Shown here: in pieces, positions 14,086-36,991 of the stretch | Numbering within the stretch: position 1 is the stretch's first letter | How the letters are laid out: the number at the start of each line of letters is the position of its first letter | Assembly (NCBI GenBank): GCA_938091675.1 | Contig: CALKMX010000057.1 | Location: 1 to 55,163, forward strand | DNA from: an uncultured Opitutales bacterium | GTDB lineage: Bacteria; Verrucomicrobiota; Verrucomicrobiia; Opitutales; Seribacteraceae | Direction: 5' to 3' | DNA length: 55,163 nt | The notes under the pieces: model-generated | What the model was told of the DNA's origin: nothing | Database searches by the model: none | What the model saw: only the letters and a program-made list of their open reading frames with translations | Translations under genes and position numbers: made by a program

Positions 14086-14208
14086 AGCTTGGTTACAAGT
14101 TTTGGGCGACTTTTAGGGTGGTCGTCCTAAGAAGGGGATTTGATTCCAGGCGCCCCCTCCTCTCTCGCGCTTCATTTTGTACTAACGTTGCTCTTGGGGG
14201 AGAGTGGG

Positions 14209-15180: not shown

Positions 15181-15185
15181 GACTG

Positions 15186-15530: not shown

Positions 15531-15531
15531 G

Positions 15532-18860: not shown

Positions 18861-18863
18861 TTC

Positions 18864-20276
18864 ATGCCTGATTTTGATCCATCGAATTTAAGCAACTGGA
18901 CTGGTGGTGAGTGGACAAGTCTGCCTGAATTTTGTTGTAATGGTTTTTCGATAGATTCTAGGAAACCGTGTAAGAACTCTTTATTTGTAGCCTTGAAGGC
19001 CGAAAGAGATGGTCATGATTTTTTAACGCAGGCAATTTCTTCAGGGGCGATTGGAGGTATTGTGGATCACCAGGTAACCAGTGCCGACTGCCCACAATTA
19101 ATTGTTAAGAATCCTCTGCTTGCGTTTCAAGAAATTGCGAGGAATCATCGAAAATCCTTTACTGGTAAGGTGATTGGAGTAACCGGAAGTTGTGGAAAAA
19201 CAACAACCAAAGAGATTTTAAATACTCTTTTATCAAAATCTTATTGTACGGAAGGAAACCTAAACAATCACATAGGGGTGCCCTTAACTTTATCCAAGAT
19301 ATCATCTGAGAAGCATGATTATGCAGTAATTGAGGCGGGTATAAATCAGACAGATGAAATGGATAAATTAGCCGAAATGATCGACCCTGACATTTGCCTA
19401 ATTACTTCTATTGCCCCTTCCCATTTGGATGGGCTAGGTACAATTGATACTGTGGCCAGAGAGAAAAGTAAGCTTTGGCTCAATGGGAAAGAATCTACCG
19501 TTGCTGTTTTTCCAGAAGAATTATTGCAATTCGATTCCTTTGCTCAAGCGATAGATGAAAGGCCCTGCATTACCATAAGAGAAGGGGCATGCCGGAACAG
19601 TGACATTCCTCTAAACCAAGTATTTTATAAGCTTTCGACTGAAACAAACGAGCGTGGGTACTCAAAAACATTGCAAATCAATCGTTTTGGGTGCCCACCT
19701 CTTTTTATATCTATCCCTCATGTTTCTGCGGGAAATATTAGAAATATGGTACTTGCATGCGTTGCAGCTTGGAAGTTGGGGGTCACTGATCAACAAATTT
19801 TCGATCGCCTACCCCAATATAGGCCCACTGGTCTACGAGGTTCCTGCCTCGTAGGCCAGGGATCGTCTTATGTGCTGGATTGTTATAACGCCAACCCAGC
19901 TTCGATGCTGGACTCAATCGAGTTCTTATATGAAAAATTTATGAATCAGTCCAAGCTCCTAATATTAGGTGGAATGAATGAACTGGGTACTGACAGCAAA
20001 AAATTACATTACGAAACTGGCAGGTCAATCAACCTCGGTTCTTCGGATCAAGTTATTTTGATTGGAGAACACACTCTTGAACTGGCAAATGGCCTAATGG
20101 AAAATGGAGCTACCGCAAAACAGATATCCATCATCAGTAATCTCGAAAATGCGAAACCAATTATAAATGAATTTACTGGAGTGGTTTTGCTCAAAGGAAG
20201 TCGATCATACCAACTTGAAAGATTAATTCCAACTTGGGCAGAAGCTGAAATTGAACCGTTGAGGATCGCATGCTGA
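18864..20276 (+). CDS. murF: UDP-MurNAc-tripeptide-D-Ala-D-Ala ligase
   Basis: MurF joins D-Ala-D-Ala to the tripeptide, completing the cytosolic precursor. The P-loop is GVTGSCGKTTT (105-115), the LNNHIGVPLTL motif follows, and the C-terminal domain has DCYNANPASM with the conserved YNANP. At 470 residues it is of normal size. The coding sequence contains a near-perfect 13-bp stem-loop at 19828-19859, in the segment just before DCYNANP. It overlaps mraY by seven bases. Confidence 0.94.
   Translation: MPDFDPSNLSNWTGGEWTSLPEFCCNGFSIDSRKPCKNSLFVALKAERDGHDFLTQAISSGAIGGIVDHQVTSADCPQLIVKNPLLAFQEIARNHRKSFTGKVIGVTGSCGKTTTKEILNTLLSKSYCTEGNLNNHIGVPLTLSKISSEKHDYAVIEAGINQTDEMDKLAEMIDPDICLITSIAPSHLDGLGTIDTVAREKSKLWLNGKESTVAVFPEELLQFDSFAQAIDERPCITIREGACRNSDIPLNQVFYKLSTETNERGYSKTLQINRFGCPPLFISIPHVSAGNIRNMVLACVAAWKLGVTDQQIFDRLPQYRPTGLRGSCLVGQGSSYVLDCYNANPASMLDSIEFLYEKFMNQSKLLILGGMNELGTDSKKLHYETGRSINLGSSDQVILIGEHTLELANGLMENGATAKQISIISNLENAKPIINEFTGVVLLKGSRSYQLERLIPTWAEAEIEPLRIAC
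19828..19859 (+). other. 13-bp stem-loop inside murF
   Basis: CTGGTCTACGAGG (19828-19840) can pair with CCTCGTAGGCCAG (19847-19859) over 13 bp, with a single G-U pair and a six-base loop TTCCTG. No T-run follows, so it is not a terminator. It encodes a Gly-rich turn (GLRGSCLVGQG). Confidence 0.7.
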
Positions 20277-21415
20277 GCTGGTTACAATTTTGGGAGGATT
20301 TATGGGGTCCACTCCGACTATTTCAATATATTTCGGTTCGGGCATTGGGTGCCGGGATTACTGCATTAATTCTAGGCTTTTGGATTGGGCCTACATTAAT
20401 TACTTTACTCAAAAAAATTGGTGCTAAACAGGCATTCAGGGATAAGGATGAAGTCGGAAAATTAGCTGATTTGCACCTTGGGAAGTCCCATACACCAACC
20501 ATGGGCGGGATCCTGATTTTTTGTTCAGTTTTTTTAAGTGCTATTTTATGGGCAGAACCAAATGTTTATGTTTTCACATCCCTGATAACCTACGGATTGC
20601 TTACCGCCGTGGGCTTTGCAGATGATTATCTGAAGGTATCGAAGAAAAACAGCAAAGGGTTACCGGGTAGGTACAAGTTACTCGGACAATTGGCTGTGAC
20701 CGGAGTAGCCTTATTCATTTTACTTGGCCCATTAGCGAATTTTTTAAATGGAGCAGGGCAGGAAAATCTTGGGAGTAATGAGAAAATGAGAGAGTTTTGG
20801 ATGCCCTTTATCAGTTACACTGATCTTAGTAGCGTGCCTGTTCTCTCTTTGGGGATGTTATCTTTATTATATCTGATTACTCTCACTGGAACAAGTAATG
20901 CGATTAATTTAACTGATGGTCTAGATGGCTTAGCAATTGGCTGTACGGTAACCGTTGCCTTGACCTATGCGATTATGGCCTATGCATCAGGAAATTATCT
21001 AATCGCTGATTACTTAAAAATTAGCTGGGTGCCCGGGTCGGGCGAACTTGCTATTGTTTGTGTTGCCTTACTGGGGGGAAGTCTGGCGTTTCTATGGTAC
21101 AATGCGCACCCTGCTGAAGTTTTCATGGGTGATACAGGCTCGTTGGCCATTGGGGGCTTGATTGGTGTAATCGCATTGATGATCCATCAACCCCTTACCT
21201 TAATCATTGTCGGCGGAATCTTTGTTATGGAAGCAGCCTCAGTAATTCTCCAGGTGGCCTCTTTTAAAACGAGAGGGAAAAGAATTTTCCTGATGTCTCC
21301 AATTCATCATCACTTTGAATTGAAAGGGTGGAAAGAAACAAAGGTGGTGATACGGTTTTGGATTTTGTCGCTGCTTTTCGCACTCATCGGACTGGCAACT
21401 CTCAAACTTCGCTGA
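20270..21415 (+). CDS. mraY: Phospho-MurNAc-pentapeptide transferase
   Basis: MraY loads the pentapeptide precursor onto undecaprenyl phosphate, making lipid I at the inner membrane. The 381-residue protein has about ten membrane helices and the family motifs: KSHTPTMGG, GFADDYLKV with the Asp pair, NAINLTDGLDGLA, the NAHPAEVFMGDTGSLA metal-binding loop and the MSPIHHHFELKGW block. It starts within the end of murF (seven-base overlap) and its stop shares one base with the murD ATG (TGATG). Confidence 0.96.
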   Translation: MLSWLQFWEDLWGPLRLFQYISVRALGAGITALILGFWIGPTLITLLKKIGAKQAFRDKDEVGKLADLHLGKSHTPTMGGILIFCSVFLSAILWAEPNVYVFTSLITYGLLTAVGFADDYLKVSKKNSKGLPGRYKLLGQLAVTGVALFILLGPLANFLNGAGQENLGSNEKMREFWMPFISYTDLSSVPVLSLGMLSLLYLITLTGTSNAINLTDGLDGLAIGCTVTVALTYAIMAYASGNYLIADYLKISWVPGSGELAIVCVALLGGSLAFLWYNAHPAEVFMGDTGSLAIGGLIGVIALMIHQPLTLIIVGGIFVMEAASVILQVASFKTRGKRIFLMSPIHHHFELKGWKETKVVIRFWILSLLFALIGLATLKLR

Positions 21416-22731
21416 TGAAAACCAATCGTTTGCAAAGTATTTTTAAATGTGTTGATGCACCCGTGGCAATTTTGGGTAGTGGTATGAGTGGGCAAGCTGC
21501 TCAAAAACTTTTGTCTGCTAAAGGCAGAGTGAGTGAGTTTTTTGATGAGAAACATCGCCTTTTTGAAAGTTTGGATGCCGCAAAATGTTCTTTTGTAGTA
21601 GTTAGCCCTGGTTTTAGACCCAGTCATGAGTGGGTAAAGCTTGCTTTAAATGCGGGTAAAGAAGTGATTTCAGAAGTTGATTTAGGTTTAGTTTATTCAA
21701 AGCACACAGAACTTGTTTCAATTACCGGAACTAATGGGAAGACCTCTCTGGCAAGTATACTGGACCATGTTGCTAGCAGACTTGACATACCTTGCACGGT
21801 TCTTGGAAATATAGGGAAACCCATATCTGCAGAAGTTGCCGAGGAATCTTTGTCCGGAAAAATCGTATTTCTAGAGACCAGTTCTTTTCAGGCAATAACT
21901 TCTAATTACCTAAAACCTGATTCACTGCTATGGACAAATTTTTCTCAAGACCATCTCGACTATCATGGGACTGAAAAAGATTACTATTTGGCAAAATTCC
22001 GACTGGTATCCAATTGTAAGAACATGGATGAGGTCTTTCTTGGTCGTTCGGTATTATCTCAAGCAAAGAAATTCGGTCTAGATACAAATCCCCAATGGCA
22101 AATCATTGATCCACTCTCGGTCAATGAATTGCCTGCCCGCATTAGTTCCTTTCATAAGAGTGTGCCTCAAAGGGAAAATTTGGCATTTGCTTTGCGCTGG
22201 TTTAAACGAAAAGGATATTGTGAGAATCAATTTTTCGATGCCTTGGGTGATTATCGCCCATATCCACATCGTTTATTCAAAGTAAATGAGATTAACGATA
22301 TATCTTTCTGGAATGATTCCAAGTCAACCAACCTAGGTTCAACCCTGGCTGCTTGTGAATCGTTTTCCAAAAAAGTAATCTGGATCGGTGGGGGGAAAAA
22401 CAAAGGGCAGGAAATAAAAAAGTTTGCCACTGCGTTATTCCCATATCTGCAAGGCGCATTTCTAATAGGAGAGACTGCTGATGAACTATCGAAGCATCTG
22501 ACTGAAAGGAATATTAAAACAACAATTTGCAGAAACCTCAAAAGTGCGGTCGCAGTAGCCTTTGAATTCGCCAAAAAACATACCGATATTTTATTTAGCC
22601 CGGGATTTGCGAGCTTTGATATGTTTTCAAATTACAGCGACCGGGGAAATTCATTTGAATCTCTCGTTTTCGATTTGAAGAGTGCCTGTCAAGTCTCTAC
22701 GAAAATAAATGTGAAATCATTTGCAAGCTAG
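21415..22731 (+). CDS. murD: UDP-MurNAc-L-Ala D-Glu ligase
   Basis: MurD adds D-glutamate to UDP-MurNAc-L-Ala. The P-loop is SITGTNGKT (about 103-111), followed by the ETSSFQ and NFSQDHLDYHGT motifs, and WNDSKSTNLGSTLAAC in the C-terminal domain. The start at 21415 (MKTNRLQSIF...) overlaps the mraY stop as TGATG and gives 438 residues, the normal length; the upstream in-frame start at 21328 lies inside mraY and is rejected. The LysM gene follows after 12 bases. Confidence 0.94.
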   Translation: MKTNRLQSIFKCVDAPVAILGSGMSGQAAQKLLSAKGRVSEFFDEKHRLFESLDAAKCSFVVVSPGFRPSHEWVKLALNAGKEVISEVDLGLVYSKHTELVSITGTNGKTSLASILDHVASRLDIPCTVLGNIGKPISAEVAEESLSGKIVFLETSSFQAITSNYLKPDSLLWTNFSQDHLDYHGTEKDYYLAKFRLVSNCKNMDEVFLGRSVLSQAKKFGLDTNPQWQIIDPLSVNELPARISSFHKSVPQRENLAFALRWFKRKGYCENQFFDALGDYRPYPHRLFKVNEINDISFWNDSKSTNLGSTLAACESFSKKVIWIGGGKNKGQEIKKFATALFPYLQGAFLIGETADELSKHLTERNIKTTICRNLKSAVAVAFEFAKKHTDILFSPGFASFDMFSNYSDRGNSFESLVFDLKSACQVSTKINVKSFAS

Positions 22732-22743
22732 CCAATAAGAAAA

Positions 22744-23820
22744 ATGAAACTATCCAAAGTATTCGGTATTGTTCTATCACTCCATGTGGGTGTTATATTA
22801 TTAGTAATGTTCCAACCAAGTTGCCAGACAACTGGTGGGAATGCACGGGGGCCGGAAGGGGAGGCGAATTCCTCAATCGATGAAACATCCGTGCAATCTT
22901 TTAACCAAGCGGTTGAAGTTTCAAATACAAACACCAATGAAAAGATTTCGGGAGGCAATCAGCCAGACCAACTTGCTGCACCCAAGAGACCTAAACCAGG
23001 CGAGCTGATCATACCGAGTGAGCCTAGAGGGTCCACGGATTCCAAACCTTCGATTCTTGTGCCAACTGAAACGAGTAACCGAGTGATTGATCTTAGACCA
23101 TCTGACCTTTCCATCTATAAGGTAGTAAGAGGTGACACACTTTGGGGCATTGCTCGAAAGAATGGAGTTTCTCTCGCAAGTTTACTTAATGCTAATCCAA
23201 ACCTCGATAAGAGTGGTCGTCTCTCTATAGACCAGGAAATCATGATTCCTGCCACATCAGGTACAAACTCTGTAACTTCATCAGGGCCAATCGTAAATGA
23301 TGCTCCTGTTCTTTCTCTTAGTGGTAACTCCTACAGGGTTGAAGCGGGCGATACCCTGTCGCGCATTGCTCAAAAGTTTAATGTCAGGCTTTCGGAATTG
23401 CTCAAAGCCAATGATATGTCCATGTCTTCGATTATTAGACCTGGGCAAACCCTGTCTATCCCCTCGGAATTAAATAACCGTGATGTGGGAAGTTCTCCAT
23501 CCACTCAGGTTACCAACAGAGTCGTTCCCCCCGGAGCAAGCACGCATATTGTCAAAAAGGGTGAAAACTTATCGCGTATATCTTCAATCTATGGAGTGTC
23601 CGTTTCCCAAATTATGGAATGGAACGGATTGTCCAACCCTAGTTTAATTCGTGCTGGTCAACCGTTGATAGTTTCCCAGGGAGTCAGCGAAACTCCTAGT
23701 CAGTCTTCCCCTATTGTTAAGGATAATGCCGATGCACTTCCTGCTAACGAGGGTGGTACATTGCAGGACTTTTTTAACGAGTCATCTACAGAAGATAGAC
23801 CAATAATTGATGCTCCTTAA
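22744..23820 (+). CDS. Membrane or exported protein with three LysM domains
   Basis: A 358-residue protein. An N-terminal hydrophobic helix (about 5-24) is followed by a Cys in QPSCQTTGG, a poor lipobox, so it may be a signal anchor rather than a lipoprotein. After a low-complexity linker there are three LysM units at about 123-168, 197-240 and 268-312, each with the GDTLxxIAxxxxVxLxxLLxxN pattern. They should bind peptidoglycan. No catalytic amidase, peptidase or lytic transglycosylase domain follows. Its place between murD and ftsW suggests a role at the septum. Confidence 0.85.
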   Translation: MKLSKVFGIVLSLHVGVILLVMFQPSCQTTGGNARGPEGEANSSIDETSVQSFNQAVEVSNTNTNEKISGGNQPDQLAAPKRPKPGELIIPSEPRGSTDSKPSILVPTETSNRVIDLRPSDLSIYKVVRGDTLWGIARKNGVSLASLLNANPNLDKSGRLSIDQEIMIPATSGTNSVTSSGPIVNDAPVLSLSGNSYRVEAGDTLSRIAQKFNVRLSELLKANDMSMSSIIRPGQTLSIPSELNNRDVGSSPSTQVTNRVVPPGASTHIVKKGENLSRISSIYGVSVSQIMEWNGLSNPSLIRAGQPLIVSQGVSETPSQSSPIVKDNADALPANEGGTLQDFFNESSTEDRPIIDAP

Positions 23821-23832
23821 GGAGGTTTTACC

Positions 23833-23859
23833 ATGGTGTGTGGTGGGAAAGGAAGGTAG
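23833..23859 (+). other. Eight-codon mini-ORF before ftsW
   Basis: ATG 23833 stands eight bases after the strongest Shine-Dalgarno of the cluster (AAGGAGG) and opens the peptide MVCGGKGR, ending in TAG at 23857-23859. The stop is two bases before the TTG at 23862 that can start ftsW in another frame. This could be a coupling leader or a chance result. Confidence 0.35.
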
Positions 23860-24989
23860 GATTGGCAGATACAGGAGCACTAAGTAGGACTACAAACTGG
23901 GTGACGGCCTACTTGGTCGTTGCTTCGATTGGATTGACCATGGTTGGACTCGTCATGCTCTTTAGTGCCGGGGCAGTTCGGGGCGCACAGGATTTGCTTT
24001 TTAAGCAGATCGTTTGGGTGCTCATATCCTTTTCAGCATGTTGGTACGCATCCGTCGTAAACTTAGATTGGTTGAAGAACAGGTCCGTGCTTATCTTTGC
24101 CATTTGCATAGTTGGTCTGTTGTTGACCTTAATACCAGGGGTTGGAGTTAAGGTAAACGGAGCACAGCGTTGGATTGGTCTTGGGTCTTTAAGGATTCAG
24201 CCCTCCGAGTTTGCCAAAATTGGAATGGTACTCATGCTCGCAAAATATTTTGCTGATGAGCAGCGAGAGATAGGAAGATTGGTTAAGGGCTTTGTGATCC
24301 CATCACTCTTTATAAGTGGCATTTGTGGTTTAATCCTACTACAGCCAGATTTTGGGACATGTTTCTTATGCGGAACGGTGGGAGCGATCCTAATGTTTCA
24401 GGCTGGTGTCGGATTAAAGTGGCTATTGCCCGTGGCTGGACTTGCTGTCTCTGCCTTTTCTGTTTTGGTCTATTTCGATCCTGTTCGTATCAGGAGAGTG
24501 ACATCCTTTCTAGATGTCGAAGCAAATTCGAATGACAGTGCATATCAGTTATGGCAGGGTATGCTGGCTTTTGGCGTAGGTGGGGCAGAGGGGGTTGGGC
24601 TGGGAATGGGGCGCCAGCAAATGTATTTTTTGCCGGAATCACACACTGATTTTATTTTTCCTGTAATTGGGGAGGAACTCGGTTTATTTGCCACTGTAAG
24701 TATTCTCATAGTTTTTATGTTTATGTTTTTTTCGGTCGGTATTAAAATCCGGCATGTTTCTAGGATGAATGAATATCTCCTAGCGATGGGGTCCCTCCTT
24801 TTTGTTGTCCTTCAGGCGATAATCAATATGGGAGTGGTAACAGGCTGCCTGCCAACCAAGGGGATGTCACTGCCTTTTATTAGTTATGGTGGGTCCAATC
24901 TGGTCGTAACTTTTATTTTTGTGGGGCTTGTTATTAATGTAATGAGGAGGAAGGAAAGCCCGTCACCGATACAGGCAAGGGAGTTATGA
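23838..24989 (+). CDS. ftsW: Septal peptidoglycan glycosyltransferase (SEDS)
   Basis: FtsW polymerises lipid II at the septum together with FtsI. The protein has about ten membrane helices and the family motifs: KVNGAQRWIGLGSLRIQPSEFAKIGMVL, LLQPDFGT, the ESHTDFIFPVIGEELG loop and the C-terminal GMSLPFISYGGSNL. The start is uncertain: GTG 23838 gives 383 residues but is 12 bases from a strong AAGGAGG at 23818-23825. An ATG at 23833 with ideal spacing opens a different frame that stops after eight codons. TTG 23862, after AGGAAGG, is another option. It overlaps murG as ATGA. Confidence 0.93.
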   Translation: MWWERKVGLADTGALSRTTNWVTAYLVVASIGLTMVGLVMLFSAGAVRGAQDLLFKQIVWVLISFSACWYASVVNLDWLKNRSVLIFAICIVGLLLTLIPGVGVKVNGAQRWIGLGSLRIQPSEFAKIGMVLMLAKYFADEQREIGRLVKGFVIPSLFISGICGLILLQPDFGTCFLCGTVGAILMFQAGVGLKWLLPVAGLAVSAFSVLVYFDPVRIRRVTSFLDVEANSNDSAYQLWQGMLAFGVGGAEGVGLGMGRQQMYFLPESHTDFIFPVIGEELGLFATVSILIVFMFMFFSVGIKIRHVSRMNEYLLAMGSLLFVVLQAIINMGVVTGCLPTKGMSLPFISYGGSNLVVTFIFVGLVINVMRRKESPSPIQAREL

Positions 24990-26122
24990 AAAACATTATC
25001 ATAGCCTGTGGGGGAACCGGTGGACATTTGACTCCAGGTATTGCACTTGCCCAAAGCTTGGAAGAGTTGGGCTGTTCTACCTGGCTTTTTATTAGCCAAA
25101 AACAAGTGGATTCTAGACTCGCTTCCAAATATCCTGAGTTAACCTTTGTTCCTATGTCTGGAGCTCCACTGGTAAAAACTACTTGGGGTATAATAAAATT
25201 TATAAAAGGCTTCCTGGTATCCTTTCTCCGTTCGCGTTCATTCTTCCGGAAAATTGATGCCGATGCACTGGTTGGATTTGGGGGGTTTTCATCTTTTGGT
25301 CCCGCACTTGCTGCCCGCACATGTGGTATTCCCTTCTATGTACACGAAGCCAACCGGGTTGTCGGGAAAGCTGTCCGTTTTTTGGCAAACCGTGCCCAAA
25401 AGGTTTATTTTCCAGCAGGTGTCAATTGCCCCGGTGTATCAATCGAAAAGATTTCACACATTGGGTATCCCTTAAGGTCAGACTTTAGAAGAATCCCGAT
25501 GGAAAGAGCACGAAAGTGCTTAGGGATTTCTATGTCCGATAAATTGCTCCTGGTGTTAGGAGGGAGTCAGGGAGCATCCTCCCTTAACAACTGGGTTAAA
25601 AATAATTTGTCACATTTAGCTGAGGATGGAATTTCAGTGTACTGCCTGACCGGATTAAAGGAACAAAACTCTGGAACAGTTCAGCTTGAAGGAATAGGTG
25701 GGGAAACAATTACCAGCCGGTTTGTTGCATTTAGCGACCAAATGCACATTTTACTATCTGCCGCAAATTTGGTTATCTCCAGAGCTGGAGCGGGTTCAAT
25801 TGCTGAGATTATAAGATGTCGAGTGCCATCAATTCTCATTCCTTATCCCTTTGCTGCCGACCAACATCAGCTTGCCAATGCGAATTACTTGGAGGCTAAG
25901 GGTGGCAGCGTTGTTTGTACGGATGGAACCATTGCAGATAAATTACTCCTAGAAGTTCGTGAGCTCATGTTTAATGAGGACTTTAGGGCAGTACTACGGA
26001 GAAACCTTTATTCGTTAGATGTTGAGGATGTTTCTTCTGTGCTGGCAAAGGACCTGCTCAAGAATTTGTCTAAAAGTAAAAGCATACCAGTTTACACCGA
26101 TCTTTTGGAGGTGAGTTCATGA
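24986..26122 (+). CDS. murG: Lipid I N-acetylglucosaminyltransferase
   Basis: MurG adds GlcNAc to lipid I on the cytoplasmic face, making lipid II. The 378-residue GT28 protein has the two glycine-rich loops, GGTGGHLTPGIALA near the start and GGSQGASSLN in the C-terminal half. The acceptor-site segment GFGGFSSFGP and the UDP-GlcNAc motif SRAGAGSIAEI are also present. It starts within the ftsW stop (ATGA) and its own stop overlaps the murC-murB start. Confidence 0.95.
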   Translation: MKNIIIACGGTGGHLTPGIALAQSLEELGCSTWLFISQKQVDSRLASKYPELTFVPMSGAPLVKTTWGIIKFIKGFLVSFLRSRSFFRKIDADALVGFGGFSSFGPALAARTCGIPFYVHEANRVVGKAVRFLANRAQKVYFPAGVNCPGVSIEKISHIGYPLRSDFRRIPMERARKCLGISMSDKLLLVLGGSQGASSLNNWVKNNLSHLAEDGISVYCLTGLKEQNSGTVQLEGIGGETITSRFVAFSDQMHILLSAANLVISRAGAGSIAEIIRCRVPSILIPYPFAADQHQLANANYLEAKGGSVVCTDGTIADKLLLEVRELMFNEDFRAVLRRNLYSLDVEDVSSVLAKDLLKNLSKSKSIPVYTDLLEVSS

Positions 26123-28323
26123 GACGCCCTAAAAGAGTTTTACTACTGGGTGCAGGCGGGATGGGGATGGTCCCCTTGGCTCTTTATCTTAGGGGGGCTG
26201 GCGTACGTGTGGAAGCTTTCGATGATCAATTCCACGAGCCTATACGAAGCCACCTAATTGAGCATGGTGTAAAATTATTGGATGAACTTAGCCCAATTAA
26301 GGAGCCCGATTGTATTGTTCATTCCTCCGCAATAAATCACGATGAAAGTAGGCTAAAAAAGTTAAAGCTTTCGGGAATTCCTTTTTATCGTCGCGGGGAG
26401 TTTGTGGCTAACTTGTTTTCCCGTCACAAGATAATTGCAGTGGTAGGAAGTCACGGCAAAACTAGCGTTACGGGTAAACTGGCTTGGGCACTTGACCTAT
26501 GTGGATTTGAAACATCTCATTTGGTCGGTGGTCAGTTTAAAAACTTTTTTTTACCATCCGGATATTACTCAAAATCTAAATGGGTAGTAATTGAGGTCGA
26601 TGAAAGTGATGGATCAATTGATGCATTTTCTCCCTGGGTAACGATTTGTTTGAATTGTGACTGGGATCATGTCGATCAGTACAAAGACAAGCACTCTTTT
26701 GCCAAAATCCTCAAAAATTTATTTTTACGAACCAAAGGCTCAATCATACATGGTGATGGGAAAATTCTTAGCACAATCATTCGCGATCTAAAAAATAAGT
26801 CGGTCTATGGCTTTGACCGCGGAAAAGATCCATCCTCCTTTCTAATTTCAAACACCAATGCGGTTTTACAAGCTGGTAAAGTCCTTGGGGTTGATTTCTC
26901 TGAGGTAGACTTTGAACGATTTCCAGGCATGGAAAGGAGGCAAAGTATACTTTTTGAATCATCTGACCGTGTGGTGCTGGAGGACTATGCCCATCATCCT
27001 ACTGAAATTTCAAGTGTGCTTAGACTTAGAAGAGAAATGCTGCCTGACCATATTTTAAGGGTGGTTTTTCAGCCACACAGATATTCCAGAACCAAGGCAT
27101 TGGCCTCATCTTTTGCTGAGGAACTTTCTGTTGCCGACGAACTTCACTTGTTGCCCACATACGGTGCCTTTGAAAAGTTTGACCCGTCAGGTGCAGTGGA
27201 GTCGCTGACTGGTTTTTTACCACCAAGGCTTCGGGATTCTGCCAAAATATTTAAGGAGTTTTACAACCTAAGAAGTACACTTAGCCCAAAACCAACAGGT
27301 TTGAGTGATCAGGTAGTTTTTGTAGGGGCTGGGGATTTAAACAAGTGGGCTCATGCATTCTCCTCATGGGAGAGAGCGAAAGGTTACAAGCAAGATGCCT
27401 TTGGTTTATTTCTTGAGGGTCGTTTATCTCATCAATCTAAGTTGATCAGAGATTTGCCAATTGGAACAATGACTACCATCGGGGTAGGTGGATCGACTAA
27501 GTGGTATGCCGAACCTGCCAATATTGAGGATCTTACCACCCTTGTGGAAGCATGTGATATTTTTGAATTGCAAAGAGCAATGATTGGCCGGGGTTCTAAT
27601 CTGATCGTGCCCGATCAAGGTTTTGGGGGATTAGTGATTCGCTTACGTGGTGAGTTCTGGCGGACGATTGATGCCAGGTGTGATGATTCCATCATTGTTG
27701 GAGCTGGGGCAAAGCTTAAGGAAATTTGTAAATTTGCATGCTTGAAAAATCTCAGCGGTTTCGAGTTTTTGGAAGGAATACCTGGTACCTTAGGCGGTGC
27801 CCTCAGAATGAATGCGGGTGCGATGGGTTGGGAGATTTTTGATTTTGTGGAATGGGTTAAATTTTTAATGCCTAACGGAGAAATTAAACAAATAGATGGA
27901 GATGAACTTGAAGTCGGATACCGGTATTGCAGGGAAGCATATGAGGGAATTGCCCTGAGGGCGAAACTCAGGGCAGAGGGCAGGGCACAGCACCTAGAAA
28001 TTCGTAAAGTTATTGAGAAAATGTCTCGCAAAAGAAGGAAATCACAACCCAAACAAGCAAGTTCAGGTTGTATATTTCGAAACCCTAAAGATAAGCCTGC
28101 TGGTTGGCTTATTGACCAGGCAGGTTTGAAAGGCGAACAAATCGGAGGAGCTGCCGTTTCCGAAGTTCACGGAAATTTTATCGTCAATCAGGGAGGCGCA
28201 ACCGCTGAGCATGTGGTTGAGCTTATTCAAAGAGTGAAGCAACAGGTAAAAGATACGCACGGAATTGTGCTGGAACCGGAAGTTAATTTACTCGGTCAAA
28301 CCTGGAAACAATACCTATCTTAG
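26119..28323 (+). CDS. murC-murB: MurC-MurB fusion: UDP-MurNAc-L-Ala ligase / UDP-enolpyruvyl-GlcNAc reductase
   Basis: A 734-residue bifunctional protein for two consecutive cytosolic steps. Residues 1-430 are MurC: GAGGMGM, P-loop GSHGKTSVT (110-118), DYAHHPTEI and FQPHRYSRT. Residues about 445-734 are MurB: IGVGGSTKWYAEP and GRGSNLIV for FAD, GIPGTLGGALRMNAG, and SSGCIFRNP, where Cys replaces the usual proton-donor Ser, and the final LEPEVNLLG. The MurC half is odd: about 30-40 residues of the central domain are missing before SNTNAVLQA, where other MurC proteins have GxHNxxNAxAA. A strong GGAGGTGA lies just before the ATG. The frame is intact. Confidence 0.92.
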   Translation: MRRPKRVLLLGAGGMGMVPLALYLRGAGVRVEAFDDQFHEPIRSHLIEHGVKLLDELSPIKEPDCIVHSSAINHDESRLKKLKLSGIPFYRRGEFVANLFSRHKIIAVVGSHGKTSVTGKLAWALDLCGFETSHLVGGQFKNFFLPSGYYSKSKWVVIEVDESDGSIDAFSPWVTICLNCDWDHVDQYKDKHSFAKILKNLFLRTKGSIIHGDGKILSTIIRDLKNKSVYGFDRGKDPSSFLISNTNAVLQAGKVLGVDFSEVDFERFPGMERRQSILFESSDRVVLEDYAHHPTEISSVLRLRREMLPDHILRVVFQPHRYSRTKALASSFAEELSVADELHLLPTYGAFEKFDPSGAVESLTGFLPPRLRDSAKIFKEFYNLRSTLSPKPTGLSDQVVFVGAGDLNKWAHAFSSWERAKGYKQDAFGLFLEGRLSHQSKLIRDLPIGTMTTIGVGGSTKWYAEPANIEDLTTLVEACDIFELQRAMIGRGSNLIVPDQGFGGLVIRLRGEFWRTIDARCDDSIIVGAGAKLKEICKFACLKNLSGFEFLEGIPGTLGGALRMNAGAMGWEIFDFVEWVKFLMPNGEIKQIDGDELEVGYRYCREAYEGIALRAKLRAEGRAQHLEIRKVIEKMSRKRRKSQPKQASSGCIFRNPKDKPAGWLIDQAGLKGEQIGGAAVSEVHGNFIVNQGGATAEHVVELIQRVKQQVKDTHGIVLEPEVNLLGQTWKQYLS

Positions 28324-28337
28324 AAAATTTTGATCCA

Positions 28338-29288
28338 ATGAATGTTAACCCAAATATAGTAGTACTTTCGGGCGGAGTTGGTCCAGAAAGAGAAGTATCT
28401 CTTTTATCAGGCAAAGCTCTCTCCGAGTCCTTATCCCATAAATTTAATACGCAGCTTCTTGATTTATCTGAATGTTCACTTCCTCCAGATTTAAATCCAG
28501 AATCTGATATTGTGTTTTCGGTTATTCACGGCGAGTTTGGGGAAGATGGAAAACTGCAGGGCTTGTTAGACGCCGCTGGCTTTGAGTATTGTGGATGTGG
28601 TGCCGAATCGAGCCGTTTGTGCATGCACAAAGCCAACGCCAAAAAAAGGGTGTTGGCCGATGGAGTTAGGGTTGCAAGTGGCATAGAATTTTTTGATCCA
28701 GCTGAATTGGATGCCTCCGAGGTTGTCCAAAAACTTGGTAAAGAGCTGATTATTAAACCCACCGACCAAGGGAGCAGTGTATCGCTCTTTTTACTATCCG
28801 GTGAAGAGGAACTTCGGGAAAAATTAAAGTTTATCAATCCAGGGAACTGGTTACTGGAGGAAAGAATTTTGGGAAGAGAAGTAACCATCGGTGTTATGGG
28901 GCAACATACCCTTGGAATTGTGGAAGTAATTCCTAACGGAGGGGTTTACGATTATGAAAGAAAGTACACTCCTGGTTCCACGGAATACCGCTTCCCTGCC
29001 GTTCTTGATTCTGAAACTGAGGCAGAAATTAAAGATTTTGCCTGGAAAGCTTTTAACAGTTGTGGGTGCAGGGATTTTGCTAGAGTTGACTTTATGATTT
29101 GTGATGATGGGCATGCCTATTTTTTGGAAATCAATACCTTGCCCGGATTGACCACTACCAGCCTCTTGCCCAAAAGTGCGAGTGCCTCAGGATACAATTT
29201 TGACCAACTTACCCAAAAGCTGGTAACCCCTGCAGTAAATAGATTTTTGGGTGTAACCATTGAGGGAGAAACTCCACACGCAGCTTAA
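28338..29288 (+). CDS. ddl: D-alanine-D-alanine ligase
   Basis: Ddl makes D-Ala-D-Ala, the substrate of MurF. The 316-residue ATP-grasp protein has the N-terminal GGVGPEREVSLLSG motif, VIHGEFGEDGKLQGLLD, the ATP-contacting KPTDQGSSVS stretch, and the metal-binding FLEINTLPGLTTTSLLPK end. GREVTIGVMG is also typical. The start ATG 28338 is 14 bases after murC-murB and has no Shine-Dalgarno. Confidence 0.94.
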   Translation: MNVNPNIVVLSGGVGPEREVSLLSGKALSESLSHKFNTQLLDLSECSLPPDLNPESDIVFSVIHGEFGEDGKLQGLLDAAGFEYCGCGAESSRLCMHKANAKKRVLADGVRVASGIEFFDPAELDASEVVQKLGKELIIKPTDQGSSVSLFLLSGEEELREKLKFINPGNWLLEERILGREVTIGVMGQHTLGIVEVIPNGGVYDYERKYTPGSTEYRFPAVLDSETEAEIKDFAWKAFNSCGCRDFARVDFMICDDGHAYFLEINTLPGLTTTSLLPKSASASGYNFDQLTQKLVTPAVNRFLGVTIEGETPHAA

Positions 29289-29292
29289 ATTT

Positions 29293-30207
29293 ATGAGCAT
29301 AAGAAAAAAGAAAGACTTAGCCATGCCAGTAAGTTGGCGGAATTTAAAACCTAGCTCTGCGAGGAAATCCAGCTCGCGAATTGTTGCCCGAAAACGTTTT
29401 GTGACCTTTGCGCGGGTGTTTGTGTATTTAATCATTGCAAGTGGAATCGCTGGTTCAGTGGTTTACCAACAGTTGCGGCAGCCTAATTCAAATGTGGTCG
29501 GACAGAGCGATTACACCGGTCCATCAATTCCTATTCAAAGGATCGATTTCCGCTCAGATGGGGTATTAAATGATAAATGGTTTTTGAACTGGATGGGCCC
29601 AATTAGGGGGCTTTCATTGGCCCAAGTTAACCTCGTTAAACTTCAACATAATCTTTTGCAGGAAGACCAAATTATTGAGGTGAAAGTAAAAAGAAATTTT
29701 CCTTCTACGCTACAGGTTTTTGTTAAGGAAAGAGTGCCTCTTCTGGTTCTCAGGCTTCGTGATAATCAACTGGAATTCCGTGACTGGCTCGTGTCTTCGG
29801 ATGGCTTGCTCTATGAAGGATCTGGATATTCTACCGCAATGATGAACCTTCTTCCTTCCCTGAAAATTCCCGGGGCACTAATCCAAAAAAAAGATAATAA
29901 CAGAGGGTATAAAAAATTAGAGGGTATCCCCGTGATTGCACCACTTTTGGAACTTGCCAGATCCGAATACCCAGAAATTTTCCGCGACTGGACTGTGGTA
30001 TCTTACAACCGTCCGAGCGACAAAGACCCTGGTGCCAATGTTACTGTAAAGTCCCGTAGAATCGGAACAATACGCTTTAACCCTTCGGATTATTCATCGC
30101 AATTGAAGAGGTTACGATATCTCTTGGATGAACCCAAGTTTTTGCAAGCATCCTTCATCCGTTCCATTGATCTTTCCCATGGGCGCTCTGTTTTTGCTAA
30201 AATTTAA
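29293..30207 (+). CDS. ftsQ: FtsQ-like division protein with POTRA domain
   Basis: A bitopic division protein of 304 residues from ATG 29293. A basic cytoplasmic N-terminus (many Arg, Lys and Ser) precedes a single membrane helix (about residues 34-55). The outer part has a POTRA-like unit (IQRIDFRSDGVLNDKWFLNW, then LQVFVKERVPLLVLRL) and the FtsQ beta-domain ending in SSQLKRLRYLLDE and IRSIDLSHG. It links FtsL to the outer divisome scaffold. ATG 29293 is chosen because it follows the ddl stop by four bases; an in-frame TTG at 29260 would overlap ddl. Confidence 0.86.
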   Translation: MSIRKKKDLAMPVSWRNLKPSSARKSSSRIVARKRFVTFARVFVYLIIASGIAGSVVYQQLRQPNSNVVGQSDYTGPSIPIQRIDFRSDGVLNDKWFLNWMGPIRGLSLAQVNLVKLQHNLLQEDQIIEVKVKRNFPSTLQVFVKERVPLLVLRLRDNQLEFRDWLVSSDGLLYEGSGYSTAMMNLLPSLKIPGALIQKKDNNRGYKKLEGIPVIAPLLELARSEYPEIFRDWTVVSYNRPSDKDPGANVTVKSRRIGTIRFNPSDYSSQLKRLRYLLDEPKFLQASFIRSIDLSHGRSVFAKI

Positions 30208-30234: not shown

Positions 30235-31440
30235 ATGAGCAAAATAATTGGTGCACTAGAAATTGGTACTTCCTATGCAAAGGTCTTAATCGGCGAGGTC
30301 TCCGATGATAAAAGCCTGAATATTGTCGGCAAATCATTTCGTAAAAATGAAGGCGTTCGTAAGGGCGAAATTATTGATTTCCGTAAAACTGCTGCCAGCG
30401 TCCATGCCGCGATAGACGAGGCGGAAAAAATGTCGGGCACTACTGTTGACTCCGTATATTTAGCTCAAACAGGTTCTCACTTGAAGGGGTATTGCCTCAG
30501 GGGTAGGGCTAATGTGGCTTCACCAGATGGTCGTGTCTCTATTGCTGACCTTCAGCGTGCTGCCGATGAGGCAAAAAGAAAGCAGCCTGCATCGGGAAGG
30601 TCCTATGTTCACCATGTTCGAATGCCTATCCAGCTCGATGGTCGTCCAATCGAAGATCCAGTCGGAATGATAGGCCAAAATGTTGAGTTGGCTTATTGGT
30701 CGATTGAGGGGGATGAATCCGCAATTAGGATGAACCTCGATATCGTGCATCAGTACAGCCTAGAGGTAGACGACCTGATTTTATCTTCAATTGCATCCTC
30801 TACTCTGGTGGCAGGCCCTGATCTACGAAGAGCAGGGGTTTTGGTGATTGATATTGGGGCTGGAGTCACTGATCTTGCTCTTTATCGGGCAGGAAACATT
30901 ATTTTTACATGTGTTATTCCTGTTGGTGGAGATCATATAACTGGTGATTTGGCAATGGGTTTAAGGGTGTTGGAACCTTACGCCGAAGAACTCAAGTTAG
31001 AGTATGGTAAGGCACAACCAGACCCAACGGACGCAGAGCAGGATCTTTGGATTATTGGAAACAAGACTATCGGAGACCGCACAATTCCCAGAAAATCAAT
31101 AGCAGATATTATTCATGTAAGAACGGTTGAGCTGTTTGAAATAATAAGTAAAGAGCTAGGCGACTTAATTAACCCAAAAGAGTTGGGGGCTGGGGTTTTA
31201 TTGACCGGCGGGACATCCCGGTTGCCAGGAATCGAACAGCTAGCATCGAAAGTGCTCGGAGTTGCTACGACCAAGGCAAGTTTCCCTTCTGGGTTGGGCA
31301 ATGAACTTGCCCAAGCTGAAAACTCAACCGTGCTTGGACTGCTTCATTATGGATTGGAAGATCATCGCCTTCCTGGCGAAAGATCTCCAAGCGAAGGGGC
31401 TGGTATTTTTAAGAAGATCGGTGGATTTCTAGGCATATAG
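30235..31440 (+). CDS. ftsA: Cell division actin-like protein FtsA
   Basis: FtsA anchors FtsZ to the membrane. The 401-residue protein has the actin-like ATPase parts: phosphate-1 (GALEIGTSYAKVLIGE), phosphate-2 (VIDIGAGVTDLALY, about 204-217), the SHF-type 1C subdomain between them, and the adenosine motif GAGVLLTGGTSRLPGI. The C-terminus ends in a short amphipathic segment (IFKKIGGFLGI) that should bind the membrane. It follows ftsQ by 27 bases; ATG 30235 has no Shine-Dalgarno. Confidence 0.94.
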   Translation: MSKIIGALEIGTSYAKVLIGEVSDDKSLNIVGKSFRKNEGVRKGEIIDFRKTAASVHAAIDEAEKMSGTTVDSVYLAQTGSHLKGYCLRGRANVASPDGRVSIADLQRAADEAKRKQPASGRSYVHHVRMPIQLDGRPIEDPVGMIGQNVELAYWSIEGDESAIRMNLDIVHQYSLEVDDLILSSIASSTLVAGPDLRRAGVLVIDIGAGVTDLALYRAGNIIFTCVIPVGGDHITGDLAMGLRVLEPYAEELKLEYGKAQPDPTDAEQDLWIIGNKTIGDRTIPRKSIADIIHVRTVELFEIISKELGDLINPKELGAGVLLTGGTSRLPGIEQLASKVLGVATTKASFPSGLGNELAQAENSTVLGLLHYGLEDHRLPGERSPSEGAGIFKKIGGFLGI

Positions 31441-31494: not shown

Positions 31495-32784
31495 ATGATG
31501 AAAGATACTTTATTTGAAGATGAAAATATCGATTCCCCGACTGAAAATGCTTACGGCATTAGGGCTAAGGTTATTGGTGTTGGGGGGGCAGGCATATCCT
31601 TAGTCGATGGTTTGAGATTTGATAACTTTGATTCGGTGGATAACCTGGCGCTGGATGTTGACATGAAAGCAATTTCTGACTCTCTAGCATCCCAAAAACT
31701 TTGCTTAAGTAAAAGGCATACCCGTGGGATGGGTACGGGGGGTGATATAGCTCTGGGAAAAAGGTTGGCAGAAGAAGAAAAAGATAAAATTCGTGCACAG
31801 TTGGAGGGAGTCGATTTAGTCTTTCTTCTCGCAGGGCTCGGAGGAGGGATTGGAGGAGGAGCTTCCCCGGTTGTTGCCAGACTTGCCCGGGAGCATGGTG
31901 CATTAGTATTTGCATTTACCCCTTTGCCTTTCAGTTGGGAGAAATCTCGTCACATGCAAGCGGAGGACTGTTTGTCAGAACTTCGCAAGTATGCAAATGC
32001 TGTTGTGCCACTTCCCAATGACTCACTTCTTCAAATCGGGGGAGAAGATGCCACTGCTCTTGAGTGCTTTGCGGAAGCTGGGCGCAATGTAAGCAGAGGA
32101 ATCAGTGCCATATGTAACCTGGTATTTAAACGAGGTATGATCGATGTTGATTTTTCGTATCTTCGAAAGGTTTTTTCAGCGAGGACCGGGCGAACCCTTT
32201 TCGGTTATGGGAAAGGTTCCGGCAAGGACGCACTCCGAGAGTCATTGCGTGATTTAATGCTTTGTCCGATGTTGCACATGCCCGAGGTCTCAAAGGCAGC
32301 GGATGTTCTGATGATCTTTATTCAAGGAGGCACATCGTTAAGCATGGGAGGACTGCAGTCCGTATCCAAAGAAATTAGAGACTCCTTTAAGGCGGGTGAA
32401 GAAGTTGTTTTTGGTGCCCATGTGGATGAAAACCTTGGCGATCAGGTAAAGATCACGGTACTGGGGGCGACCTCCCTTGAGCCATTGGTAAAAGTTGCAG
32501 ATGTTGCACCTGTGGCTCAACAAGTTCTGGAATTGGCAGCACAGCCGAAAGAGGCTCACCCATCAAAGTTGGAAGTTGAAAAAAGAAAAGCCCAGCCAGC
32601 CCAAGCGGTCAATAAACGATTAATTCGAAAAAAAGAATCGAGTGTGGATCAAAACACCTTTCCATTTATGGACGAGAAAAACCAACGTGGAATTTTTGAT
32701 GATTTACCCAATCGAAACATTTATGAGGGAGAGGATTTAGATGTTCCAGCCTACCTCAGGCGAGGAGTGAAAATTGCAATTTAG
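31495..32784 (+). CDS. ftsZ: Divergent cell division GTPase FtsZ
   Basis: A 429-residue FtsZ, the ring-forming tubulin homologue. The N-terminal GVGGAGISLVDGL and the GLGGGIGGGASP signature (114-125) are recognisable but changed from the usual GGGTGTGAAP. The synergy loop, normally NVDFAD, reads D217-V-D219-F-S-Y222: Asn has become Asp and the second catalytic Asp has become Tyr. The C-terminal peptide EDLDVPAYLRRG, which binds FtsA, is intact after a flexible linker. It is the only FtsZ seen here and holds the normal place after ftsA. The 54-base C-rich leader has no Shine-Dalgarno. Confidence 0.9.
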   Translation: MMKDTLFEDENIDSPTENAYGIRAKVIGVGGAGISLVDGLRFDNFDSVDNLALDVDMKAISDSLASQKLCLSKRHTRGMGTGGDIALGKRLAEEEKDKIRAQLEGVDLVFLLAGLGGGIGGGASPVVARLAREHGALVFAFTPLPFSWEKSRHMQAEDCLSELRKYANAVVPLPNDSLLQIGGEDATALECFAEAGRNVSRGISAICNLVFKRGMIDVDFSYLRKVFSARTGRTLFGYGKGSGKDALRESLRDLMLCPMLHMPEVSKAADVLMIFIQGGTSLSMGGLQSVSKEIRDSFKAGEEVVFGAHVDENLGDQVKITVLGATSLEPLVKVADVAPVAQQVLELAAQPKEAHPSKLEVEKRKAQPAQAVNKRLIRKKESSVDQNTFPFMDEKNQRGIFDDLPNRNIYEGEDLDVPAYLRRGVKIAI

Positions 32785-33781: not shown

Positions 33782-36700
33782 ATGACAACAACAAGCCTTA
33801 TACCAGTTTTAGCATCTGCTGGTGACAGTGGATATCTTTACGGACTTTTCTTTTTAATCGTTGCTTTGATTATTGGTGCAGCGACCAGACATTTTCTCCA
33901 ACGGATTCCTCTTCCATTCACCGTGCTACTACTTCTTATTGGATTAGCGATGGGTGGATTGAATCGAGCTTATGGCCCACATGGAGGTCATGCTCATGGG
34001 GATAGTCATGCGGCAGAACAGGCACCTGGGTTGTGGAATAAGTTTGTGGATACTTTGAGCGGGGCAATTTCTTGGGGAGGCAACTTGGATGGTCACCTCA
34101 TATTGTATGTATTTTTACCTATACTTATTTTTGAGGCAGGCTTTGCCCTAGATGTGCACACATTTAAAAAGTCATTCCTTAATGCATTTTACCTAGCGGG
34201 TCCGGGTATTGTGACTGCAACTGTGATGACGGGTTTTGCTTTCATGGGACTGATCTATGCATTTGGTGGATCCGGAGGAGTTCTTCAAGATTGGAATGTG
34301 GACTCGGGGGCATTTATTGTCCTCGCATCGATGCTTTTTGGAGCGGTCGTAAGTGCGACCGACCCTGTGGCTGTTGTGGCTCTACTAAAAGAACTTGGGG
34401 CGAGCAAAAAACTTGGCACATTGATAGAAGGAGAGTCTTTGCTTAACGATGGTACAGCGATCGTCGCCTTTGTTTTGTTAATCGGAGTAGTAACGGGGGC
34501 CGAGCAGTTTTTGGGGACAGGAAGTTTTCTTGGTACCGCTGCAATTGGATTTGGAAAAATTGGAGCTGCTGGTGGATTGGTTGGGGTGATTATTGGTCTG
34601 GTGGCGATTCTATGGGTGAGGAAAGTCTTTAATGATCCGCTTATTGAAATAACAGTTGTTCTCGTCACAGCTTACGCCGTTTTCTTTGTGTGCGAGCATT
34701 TTTTCCATGTGTCTGGGGTTCTTGGACTGGTTGCACTGGGGATTGTAATGGCCGGTGTTGGCAGAACGCGCATTAGCCCAGAAGTAGAACATTTTATGCA
34801 CGAATTCTGGGAGTTTACCGCTTTTGCTGCAAATGTGATTATTTTTATAGTCGTTGGTGTGGTGATCGCTCAGAAAGCTCAACCAACCGGAATGGATTTT
34901 CTCATCCTGTTTTTGGTATATGTTGCGATTCATGTAGTCCGTGCGATCAATATGGGAATGTTTTACCCACTGATGAAAAAAGCAGGTTATGGCTTGCCCG
35001 GGAAGGACGCTGTCGTCGTATGGTGGGGTGCTTTGAGGGGGGCCATAGGTTTAGCCCTGGCCCTCGTGGTTTACTCTGAGAACCTGAGGTATGAATTTGA
35101 AGTCTCTGAGGGTGGAGCGGGTTACTCCGCTAAAACCACTTCTGTTTTTGTGGTGGATGCCAAGGAGGCTCAAAATTACTCAAGACCCAACCCTGACCTA
35201 AACCTCTACGGTATGGCAGCCAACACCTTCGCCCAGGCAAATATTTCTCAGGGAAGAATAATTGGAATTTCCCAAACTGCCCAGACTGCTGATCAGACAT
35301 TGGGTAACAAAAACTCGAAAGACGCGGCGAAGTTGCGTGAACAATTATCCAACGGTGAGAAAAAGGTAGTTATTTTTGGAGAGGGTTCTGGAGCAATTGC
35401 TCAAGCCTCTGTCGTTGGTATTTCTGCAAGAGTTCGGGATCAGTTCCTCTTTTTAATTTCTGGCATTGTTTTGCTCACTCTCTTGGTAAATGCCACTACC
35501 ATAAAATCATTGGTTAATAAATTAGGGCTTACCGACTTACCTGCCGTTAAAAAGTTAATGTTTTCTAACGCTACGGGAAATATTTCCAATGTTTGCGAAC
35601 AAGAAATGGACCTATTGAAGGACGATCGTTTCCTTAGTGGTGCAAATTGGGGATTGGTCAGGAATTATTTGCCTGATCCTGTTAGCTATCCCTTAACCGC
35701 CAGCGAACTTGAGTCCATGGATACCTTGGCCGAGGCTAGGAGAAGATTGCTCGAAAAAGAGAGGAGCAGTTATTGGGCACAGTTTAGGTCTGGTTTGTTG
35801 TCTGCCCGTGCGGTGGCTCAGCTTGATAATAACCTGAGTGAGGTTCTTGATTTTCAGGGAAAAGTACCGATGACGGAGAGGGCATACTTGGACGACATTT
35901 GCATGGTTAGCAAATTAAGTGAAGCTCTCAAGGATTTACCATTTTTGAAAAGATATTTTTCTGACAAAATAACAGTTGGGTATGATGCTTCGAAAGCGTT
36001 CGTTATTGCTCAACAGACCATGGCCAAAATGGTTGATTCGCTTGTGAGGGAACTGGATGACTCAAATGATGTTGAAAAACAGCAAAAAACCTCGCGCTTA
36101 TTAAAAGACGAAATCCGCCAAAACCGTCTCAGGGGGTTACAATACATCCGTAACATGCATGAAAATTACCCTGAGGTAACAGTCGGAATCGAAACCAAGG
36201 ACGCGATACGATCAGTATTGAACCATGAACGTGCAACGATCAAGAAGATGCGCGGGGATGGTATGCTGGAAGCAGATGAAGCGACTCGTATGATTACTGC
36301 AGTGGAAGGAAGGATGAAAAATGTGATGGAAAGTCCTCTCGAACTGAGGCTACCTGAACCTGAAGAAGTCCTTCGCGAAGTAGCTTGGCTTAAAGGAATG
36401 AGCGATGAGGTGATTTCTAAAATCCTTAATGCGTCGGAATCAAGGGTTTATAATTCTGGTGATGCTCTCATGAAGCAAGGTGACACGGGGGATGGTTTGA
36501 TTGTTATTACTCGAGGAAGTGTCAAGGTTTCAATCGGAGATGTGGTCGTAGATATTATGGGTCGTGGTGCTGTAATCGGAGAAATGGCGGTTTTAGCTGG
36601 TGTTCCCAGGACTGCCACGGTCGTGGCGGATTCTACTGTGAATGCCCTTTGGTTGACGACAGATTCCATGCAGTCAATAATGGGAGAATCGCCCGAACTT

Positions 36701-36991
36701 TCTGGCAGCCTCTGGAAAACAGCTGCAATGCGATTTGCCGAAAATCTTCTTGGTACGAGGGATCCTTACAATGGATGGAGCCAAATACAGTTGCGTAGAT
36801 GGTTAAACGAGGGCGAAGTAATGGCACCCAAAGATGGAGAAACCATTAATCTTTATGGCAAGGTAGCAATACTAGTATCCGGACAAGCTGTTGCTCCTGG
36901 TTCGTCCGATCCAATTGTGGCACCTGCTGCTCTAAACCTTGCGGAGAGTATGTTTAATGGCAGTGCCAAGGTATTCGTCCGAAACGCATAG
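33782..36991 (+). CDS. SOS1-like Na+/H+ antiporter with cyclic-nucleotide-binding domain
   Basis: A 1069-residue CPA1 antiporter. About twelve membrane helices carry the ion-site motifs SATDPVAVVALLKELGASKK (191-210) and GESLLNDGTAIVAF (217-230), which closely resemble plant SOS1 and bacterial NhaP types. After TM11 (WWGALRGAIGLALAL) there is an insert of about 120 residues (about 432-552) before the last helix. A cytoplasmic helical region leads to a cNMP-binding domain (about 876-965, GEMAVLAGVPRTATV). An outer loop at 65-78 is His-rich (PHGGHAHGDSH). It should exchange cytosolic Na+ or K+ for H+. It lies 21 bases after the FecR-like gene. Confidence 0.88.
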   Translation: MTTTSLIPVLASAGDSGYLYGLFFLIVALIIGAATRHFLQRIPLPFTVLLLLIGLAMGGLNRAYGPHGGHAHGDSHAAEQAPGLWNKFVDTLSGAISWGGNLDGHLILYVFLPILIFEAGFALDVHTFKKSFLNAFYLAGPGIVTATVMTGFAFMGLIYAFGGSGGVLQDWNVDSGAFIVLASMLFGAVVSATDPVAVVALLKELGASKKLGTLIEGESLLNDGTAIVAFVLLIGVVTGAEQFLGTGSFLGTAAIGFGKIGAAGGLVGVIIGLVAILWVRKVFNDPLIEITVVLVTAYAVFFVCEHFFHVSGVLGLVALGIVMAGVGRTRISPEVEHFMHEFWEFTAFAANVIIFIVVGVVIAQKAQPTGMDFLILFLVYVAIHVVRAINMGMFYPLMKKAGYGLPGKDAVVVWWGALRGAIGLALALVVYSENLRYEFEVSEGGAGYSAKTTSVFVVDAKEAQNYSRPNPDLNLYGMAANTFAQANISQGRIIGISQTAQTADQTLGNKNSKDAAKLREQLSNGEKKVVIFGEGSGAIAQASVVGISARVRDQFLFLISGIVLLTLLVNATTIKSLVNKLGLTDLPAVKKLMFSNATGNISNVCEQEMDLLKDDRFLSGANWGLVRNYLPDPVSYPLTASELESMDTLAEARRRLLEKERSSYWAQFRSGLLSARAVAQLDNNLSEVLDFQGKVPMTERAYLDDICMVSKLSEALKDLPFLKRYFSDKITVGYDASKAFVIAQQTMAKMVDSLVRELDDSNDVEKQQKTSRLLKDEIRQNRLRGLQYIRNMHENYPEVTVGIETKDAIRSVLNHERATIKKMRGDGMLEADEATRMITAVEGRMKNVMESPLELRLPEPEEVLREVAWLKGMSDEVISKILNASESRVYNSGDALMKQGDTGDGLIVITRGSVKVSIGDVVVDIMGRGAVIGEMAVLAGVPRTATVVADSTVNALWLTTDSMQSIMGESPELSGSLWKTAAMRFAENLLGTRDPYNGWSQIQLRRWLNEGEVMAPKDGETINLYGKVAILVSGQAVAPGSSDPIVAPAALNLAESMFNGSAKVFVRNA

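Follow-up and report, generated by a model that had tools for sequence, protein, structure and literature searches.

Cleavage of GTP by FtsZ normally requires two acidic residues, both carried on the synergy (T7) loop, and the locus studied here raises the question of whether an FtsZ in which only one of them is left can be a cell's working division protein. The window, the whole stretch of 55,163 nucleotides analyzed from an uncultured Opitutales bacterium, holds ftsZ at 31495–32784 on the forward strand, with an ATG start and a product of 429 amino acids that is the sole FtsZ/tubulin homologue of the assembly. Its T7 loop (32143–32160, forward strand) reads D217-V-D219-F-S-Y222. The initial annotation had claimed that the residue matching E. 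coli D212 is Tyr and that the Asn of the loop has become Asp, and both substitutions, with their coordinates, were borne out by the codons at 32140–32163 (ATC GAT GTT GAT TTT TCG TAT CTT, encoding I216 D217 V218 D219 F220 S221 Y222 L223) and by a gap-free alignment to E. coli PGLMNVDFADV, in which N207 corresponds to D217, D209 to D219, A211 to S221 and D212 to Y222. The alignment of the loop is identical against FtsZ of B. subtilis and other solved FtsZs. A different Asp taking the catalytic spot, which the initial annotation had left room for, was considered and rejected, since the gap-free alignment leaves no Asp on the D212 position; in the AlphaFold model D219 lies immediately ahead of helix H8 (220–226), where known FtsZs carry D209.

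Apart from this loop, the protein has the domains, fold and surroundings of an FtsZ. It matches Pfam PF00091 (Tubulin) at 112.6 bits (3.5e-32, cut-off 33) and PF12327 (FtsZ_C) at 43.1 bits (5.3e-11, cut-off 27), both above cut-off, and scores 220.3 bits against TIGR00065, the FtsZ equivalog, which is below the cut-off of 295.2 bits, an NCBIfam annotation threshold and no biological criterion. The AlphaFold model, with a core pLDDT of ∼90, superposes on E. coli FtsZ (6ll6) with a Z score of 37.7 and an rmsd of 2.0, and on solved FtsZs in general with Z scores up to 38.3 and rmsd values of 2.0–2.3 over ∼300 residues, as expected of an FtsZ fold. The ftsA-ftsZ position that the initial annotation had called canonical is indeed the end of a complete dcw cluster, which closes with ftsQ-ftsA-ftsZ: ftsA (30235–31440, forward strand) lies immediately upstream of ftsZ and scores 275 bits against TIGR01174 (cut-off 175.85), ftsQ (29260–30207, forward strand) has a weak POTRA_1 match, and the rest of the cluster (14140–29288, forward strand) comprises mraW, ftsI, murE, murF, mraY, murD, a LysM protein, ftsW, murG, a murC-murB fusion and ddl, with ftsW, murCB, ddl and the LysM protein identified by Pfam and the others by sequence and order. 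Within the cluster, the murC-murB fusion is a single gene of 734 amino acids at 26119–28323, and such a fusion has been described for Verrucomicrobium spinosum; the LysM protein, at 22744–23820 between murD and ftsW, has three LysM domains. Downstream of ftsZ, at 33782–36991, lies a gene for a 1069-amino-acid sodium/hydrogen exchanger with a cyclic-nucleotide-binding domain. The FtsA-binding-type peptide at the C-terminus (EDLDVPAYLRRG) is likewise kept, within the region 32665–32781 (forward strand). Just before the peptide, ∼25 residues ahead of the C-terminus, stands an RGxF motif (QRGIF, 32689–32703), which occurs in 78/80 Opitutales, 57/139 other Verrucomicrobiota and 0/100 Pseudomonadota and Bacillota FtsZs and has the appearance of a second binding motif specific to the phylum. 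With both domains, the fold, the position at the dcw end and the C-terminal peptide all present, each structural and genomic test identifies the protein as an FtsZ, yet its catalytic site departs from the canonical two-acid form.

The initial annotation had placed the extent of change in the T7 loop and in the tubulin signature; both readings stand, though the extent was understated. The signature on T4 (31840–31869, forward strand) is GGGIGGGASP instead of GGGTGTGAAP (in E. coli numbering, used from here on, T108 to I, T110 to G and A113 to S). In the T2 loop and the start of H2, D54-V55-D56-M57-K58 (31654–31668, forward strand), N43 has become Asp, T44 Val and Q47 Lys, with D45 kept; the alignment places S35 (31597–31599, forward strand) on the nucleotide-contacting N24; and directly ahead of R152 (31948–31950, forward strand), the kept counterpart of the arginine-finger-like R142, the residue that would match G139 is missing. 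The glycines G105, G107 and G109, as well as E138 and G71, are also kept. In S. aureus the key filament residues are D46, Q48, R143, N208, D210 and D213, corresponding to D45, Q47, R142, N207, D209 and D212 (PMC8936486). By this standard of a canonical site the window protein has D45 (D56), R142 (R152) and D209 (D219) in place, and has Lys for Q47, Asp for N207 and Tyr for D212. Of 86 residues whose invariance reaches at least 98% in the control sets described below, 43 are kept and 43 are changed, so the T7 change may belong to a more general relaxation of the protein.

The initial annotation had proposed an alignment to relatives as the check on the loop, and carrying out that alignment across the phylum shows that the change is no local oddity. 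We compared 219 Verrucomicrobiota FtsZs, sampled by family and not at random, with a few large clades dominating the counts, with two control sets of 50 FtsZs each, from Pseudomonadota and from Bacillota, each consisting of the best-scoring 30 of a search plus 20 from its lowest-scoring matches. Conservation of the six catalytic-interface residues across species has been described (PMC8936486), and the controls agree, with D209 and D212 both kept in 100/100 and all six in 99/100. The Verrucomicrobiota FtsZs divide into 47 with both acids, 99 with D209 only, 68 with D212 only and five with neither. In Opitutales the acid at 212 is absent in 73/80, and position 209 is Asp in 77 and Glu in the remaining three. 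In most FtsZs from the remaining orders of the class the acid at 212 is retained and D209 is lost (58/89); in Verrucomicrobiaceae, among them Prosthecobacter and Brevifollis, position 209 is Gly or Ser and position 207 is Arg or Lys at all 31 loci sampled. Six genomes (G012, G017, G029, G168, G271 and G340) have neither an ftsZ nor a full-strength ftsA match, for which a lost contig is the simplest cause, but FtsZ could really be absent from G168 (98% complete) and from G029 (93% complete, 0.9 Mb). Two or three FtsZ-model matches, the extra ones being putative tubulin-like proteins, occur in G142, G147, G162, G193, G270 (family f41) and G154 (family f46). In a further genome, which has its family's own FtsZ, a contig of 6.8 kb carries a canonical FtsZ in which both T7 acids are present (L037, G024:C107); this is probably contamination and was excluded from the counts.

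The near absence of FtsZs lacking both acids stands out against chance, with 5 observed where 34.7 would be expected if the losses were independent (n = 219). When partly retained residues were compared pairwise (703 pairs, median correlation +0.11), the most negative correlation was that of D209/D212 (r = -0.58). On a FastTree tree built without the T7 columns, a model in which the two acids evolve at dependent rates beats one with independent rates (LR 15.8, p = 0.003), a result that recurs on six column-bootstrap trees (p = 0.0001–0.003) and after removal of the most divergent sequences (p = 0.007), and in the fitted model either acid is lost at a rate ∼5-fold lower or more once the other is gone. 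The tree behind these tests is that of ftsZ itself, a fast-evolving gene, and most losses lie within a few large clades; the treekit independent-pairs test, limited to well-supported branches and low in power, is not significant (median p = 0.38). Treating Glu as a loss weakens the pattern (p = 0.10), consistent with a requirement for any acid and not strictly for Asp. These comparisons indicate that losing one T7 acid disfavors the loss of the other. Separately, retention of E274 in Verrucomicrobiota correlates negatively with that of G221 (-0.51) and of D209 (-0.45), which may point to additional coupled changes between the T7 types.

The explanation that competes best with a requirement for one acid is general relaxation, in which these cells need filaments and hardly any GTP turnover, so that catalytic residues are subject to neutral drift and clade history produces the D209/D212 pattern incidentally. 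The breadth of change in the phylum agrees with this. Verrucomicrobiota FtsZs retain 52–64% of the residues that the control phyla keep at 99%, the FtsZ equivalog cut-off is passed by 41/237 genomes of the class (59/60 and 61/61 for the control phyla), position 212 switches among D, H, Y, T, S and A, and a faster evolution of ftsZ was already described for Methylacidiphilum and Prosthecobacter in 2008 in a passage of PMC2474590. However, neutral drift should produce many double losses and not the five seen, and it would not be expected to make D209 and D212 more exclusive than every other residue pair. The P-loop-like glycines, E138, D45 and R142 also stay highly kept across the phylum, and dN/dS is low where it could be estimated (see below). 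We regard general relaxation as a somewhat doubtful account, though the most credible of the alternatives.

We consider it rather more probable that the window protein is a working single-acid FtsZ, based on D219 and with slower hydrolysis, and that it is one case of a phylum-wide state found in two mirror forms, D209 only in Opitutales and D212 only in Verrucomicrobiaceae and other orders. Conservation of the FtsZ fold, of the glycines that bind GTP, of the Asp at the Mg site (D45) and of the arginine-finger-like R142 suggests a protein that binds GTP, assembles into protofilaments and is anchored by FtsA through its C-terminal peptide. D219 would then be the water-placing acid, the sole canonical T7 acid left, with Y222 standing where the second acid was; GTP hydrolysis would be slower and the filaments longer lived. 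The rarity of double loss suggests that at least one T7 acid is needed. In S. aureus the side chain of D210 swings and places the attacking water; D213, which also holds that water, acts mainly by shaping its environment and by a bridge to Arg (PMC8936486). Among the closest counterparts of the window protein are the E. coli mutants D212G (FtsZ2) and D212A, in which the same position is altered and D209 is kept; these are single changes in a canonical protein, whereas the state found here is natural, fixed and accompanied by other changes. Both mutants hydrolyze GTP slowly (PMC7320174, PMC4383033), a D212G chimera has an almost tenfold lower GTPase activity and forms static rings (PMC7320174), and E. 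coli D212G is functional in division according to work cited in a passage of PMC4383033. By analogy with them, the slow or altered GTP hydrolysis proposed in the initial annotation is likely. S. aureus D213N, which corresponds to D212N, does not assemble at all (PMC8936486), so the effect of the loss should exceed slow turnover unless it is compensated, and Verrucomicrobiota FtsZs must have adjusted otherwise.

Such an adjustment could in principle be complete, with the changes N207D, N43D and Q47K/R and a shift of R142 through the G139 deletion rebuilding the site into a GTPase of normal rate. In the main branch of the window's family N207D, N43D and the loss of G139 have all become fixed, and position 47 is Lys or Arg in most of that branch. 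Fixed gains of acids in the family include positions 27, 32, 43, 51, 73, 175, 207, 234, 242 and 258 among others; those near the catalytic site are 43 and 207, and neither is at 212. What makes full compensation unlikely is that the other Opitutales without D212 are also without N207D (57 sequences from outside the family, with no Asp among the 207 replacements listed), and that outside the window's family no fixed acid gain accompanies the loss at 212 at positions reaching the γ-phosphate. A narrower role for the extra Asp can be imagined, since N208 and Q48 of S. aureus FtsZ hold a K+ ion (PMC8936486) and in the window's family Asp at 207 often faces Lys or Arg at 47 (18/23), where a salt bridge could replace the ion. 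A replacement of the D217–K58 type stays speculative because genus g3 has Asp facing Asp, with no salt bridge. As a phylum-wide rule, the Q47–N207 charge swap was rejected, being confined to the window's family and contradicted by this Asp–Asp pair.

Within the family, position 212 is most commonly His, while Opitutales from outside it mostly have Thr, Ala or Ser. Asp is found at 212 in 5/23 family members, at three places on the tree, which implies regain or repeated loss, and on this distribution D212 appears labile, not irreversibly lost, being present again in some genera. In a tree of 43 sequences with the T7 columns left out, Tyr arose once, inside the window's genus, from His (CAY to TAY); IDVDFSY is shared by seven of the eight genomes of the genus and the eighth still has His. 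The Tyr222 codon alternates between TAT and TAC among species of the genus, as expected if Tyr as such is maintained. For three pairs of genomes within the genus, the ones giving unsaturated values since the window's own synonymous sites are saturated against all relatives, dN/dS is ∼0.05–0.07 for ftsZ and 0.03–0.04 for ftsA, and ftsZ is thus under purifying selection in close relatives.

These observations also bear on whether the gene is a paralogue or a decaying copy, with the real FtsZ elsewhere in the genome or absent from the assembly, which is a draft of 123 contigs and 91% complete. Searches of the window's genome with Pfam Tubulin and with a family profile returned one match each and no second FtsZ or tubulin, including none of the BtubA/B type, and the other seven genomes of the genus have exactly one FtsZ each. 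Given in addition an intact reading frame, the full dcw context and the low dN/dS, a paralogue or decaying gene is very improbable, and the initial impression that the gene looks functional is upheld by its sole copy and modeled fold. An alignment or sequencing artefact, for which we found no supporting point, is refuted by independent genomes, since the loop aligns without gaps, all eight genomes of the genus are non-Asp at 212, and the sharing of IDVDFSY together with the TAT/TAC variation excludes chance or sequencing error.

Compared with known systems, the window protein shares with FtsZ of E. coli, S. aureus and B. subtilis the fold, the two-domain core, the GTP-binding glycines, D45, R142 and D209, as well as the ftsA-ftsZ operon position and the C-terminal peptide of canonical FtsZ; unlike these, it is without D212, N207, Q47, N43 and N24. 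FtsZ of Verrucomicrobiaceae (Prosthecobacter, Brevifollis, Verrucomicrobium sp.), from the same phylum, likewise has one T7 acid, in the mirror state with Gly or Ser at 209, D212 kept and Arg or Lys at 207. Within that family, ftsZ of Verrucomicrobium spinosum, a species absent from our compared sequences, is essential by transposon sequencing according to a passage of PMC12283558. FtsZ of Candidatus Thiosymbion oneisti is also a natural protein with low GTPase activity (PMC8953583), but its catalytic residues are reported as conserved, and its low activity thus has another cause. BtubA/B of Prosthecobacter belong to the tubulin superfamily and to the same phylum, but are separate tubulins. 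Verrucomicrobiota FtsZ has been called among the most divergent in a passage of PMC9871819. In the open literature, outside which subscription papers such as Pilhofer 2008 fall, we found no report of the T7-acid loss or of a catalytic either/or pattern in Verrucomicrobiota, and the passages of PMC2474590, PMC9871819 and PMC12283558 at hand make no mention of the loss. Fast FtsZ evolution in the phylum was thus known before, and the catalytic either/or pattern, as drawn from the sequences compared here, is apparently new.

The dozens of natural single-acid FtsZs could serve as a test of whether division requires GTP hydrolysis and treadmilling, and may show how the two acids divide the chemistry between them and how the neighboring Planctomycetota and Chlamydiota could lose FtsZ altogether. 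For work on FtsZ inhibitors, an invariant T7 loop should not be assumed in Verrucomicrobiota. As a tentative extension, to which we give clearly less than an even chance, the whole phylum may divide with an FtsZ of reduced GTP hydrolysis that has lost one T7 acid in either of two mirror ways, with treadmilling slow or unnecessary. Such a state might be an intermediate on the way to division without FtsZ, as in the sister phyla of Verrucomicrobiota.
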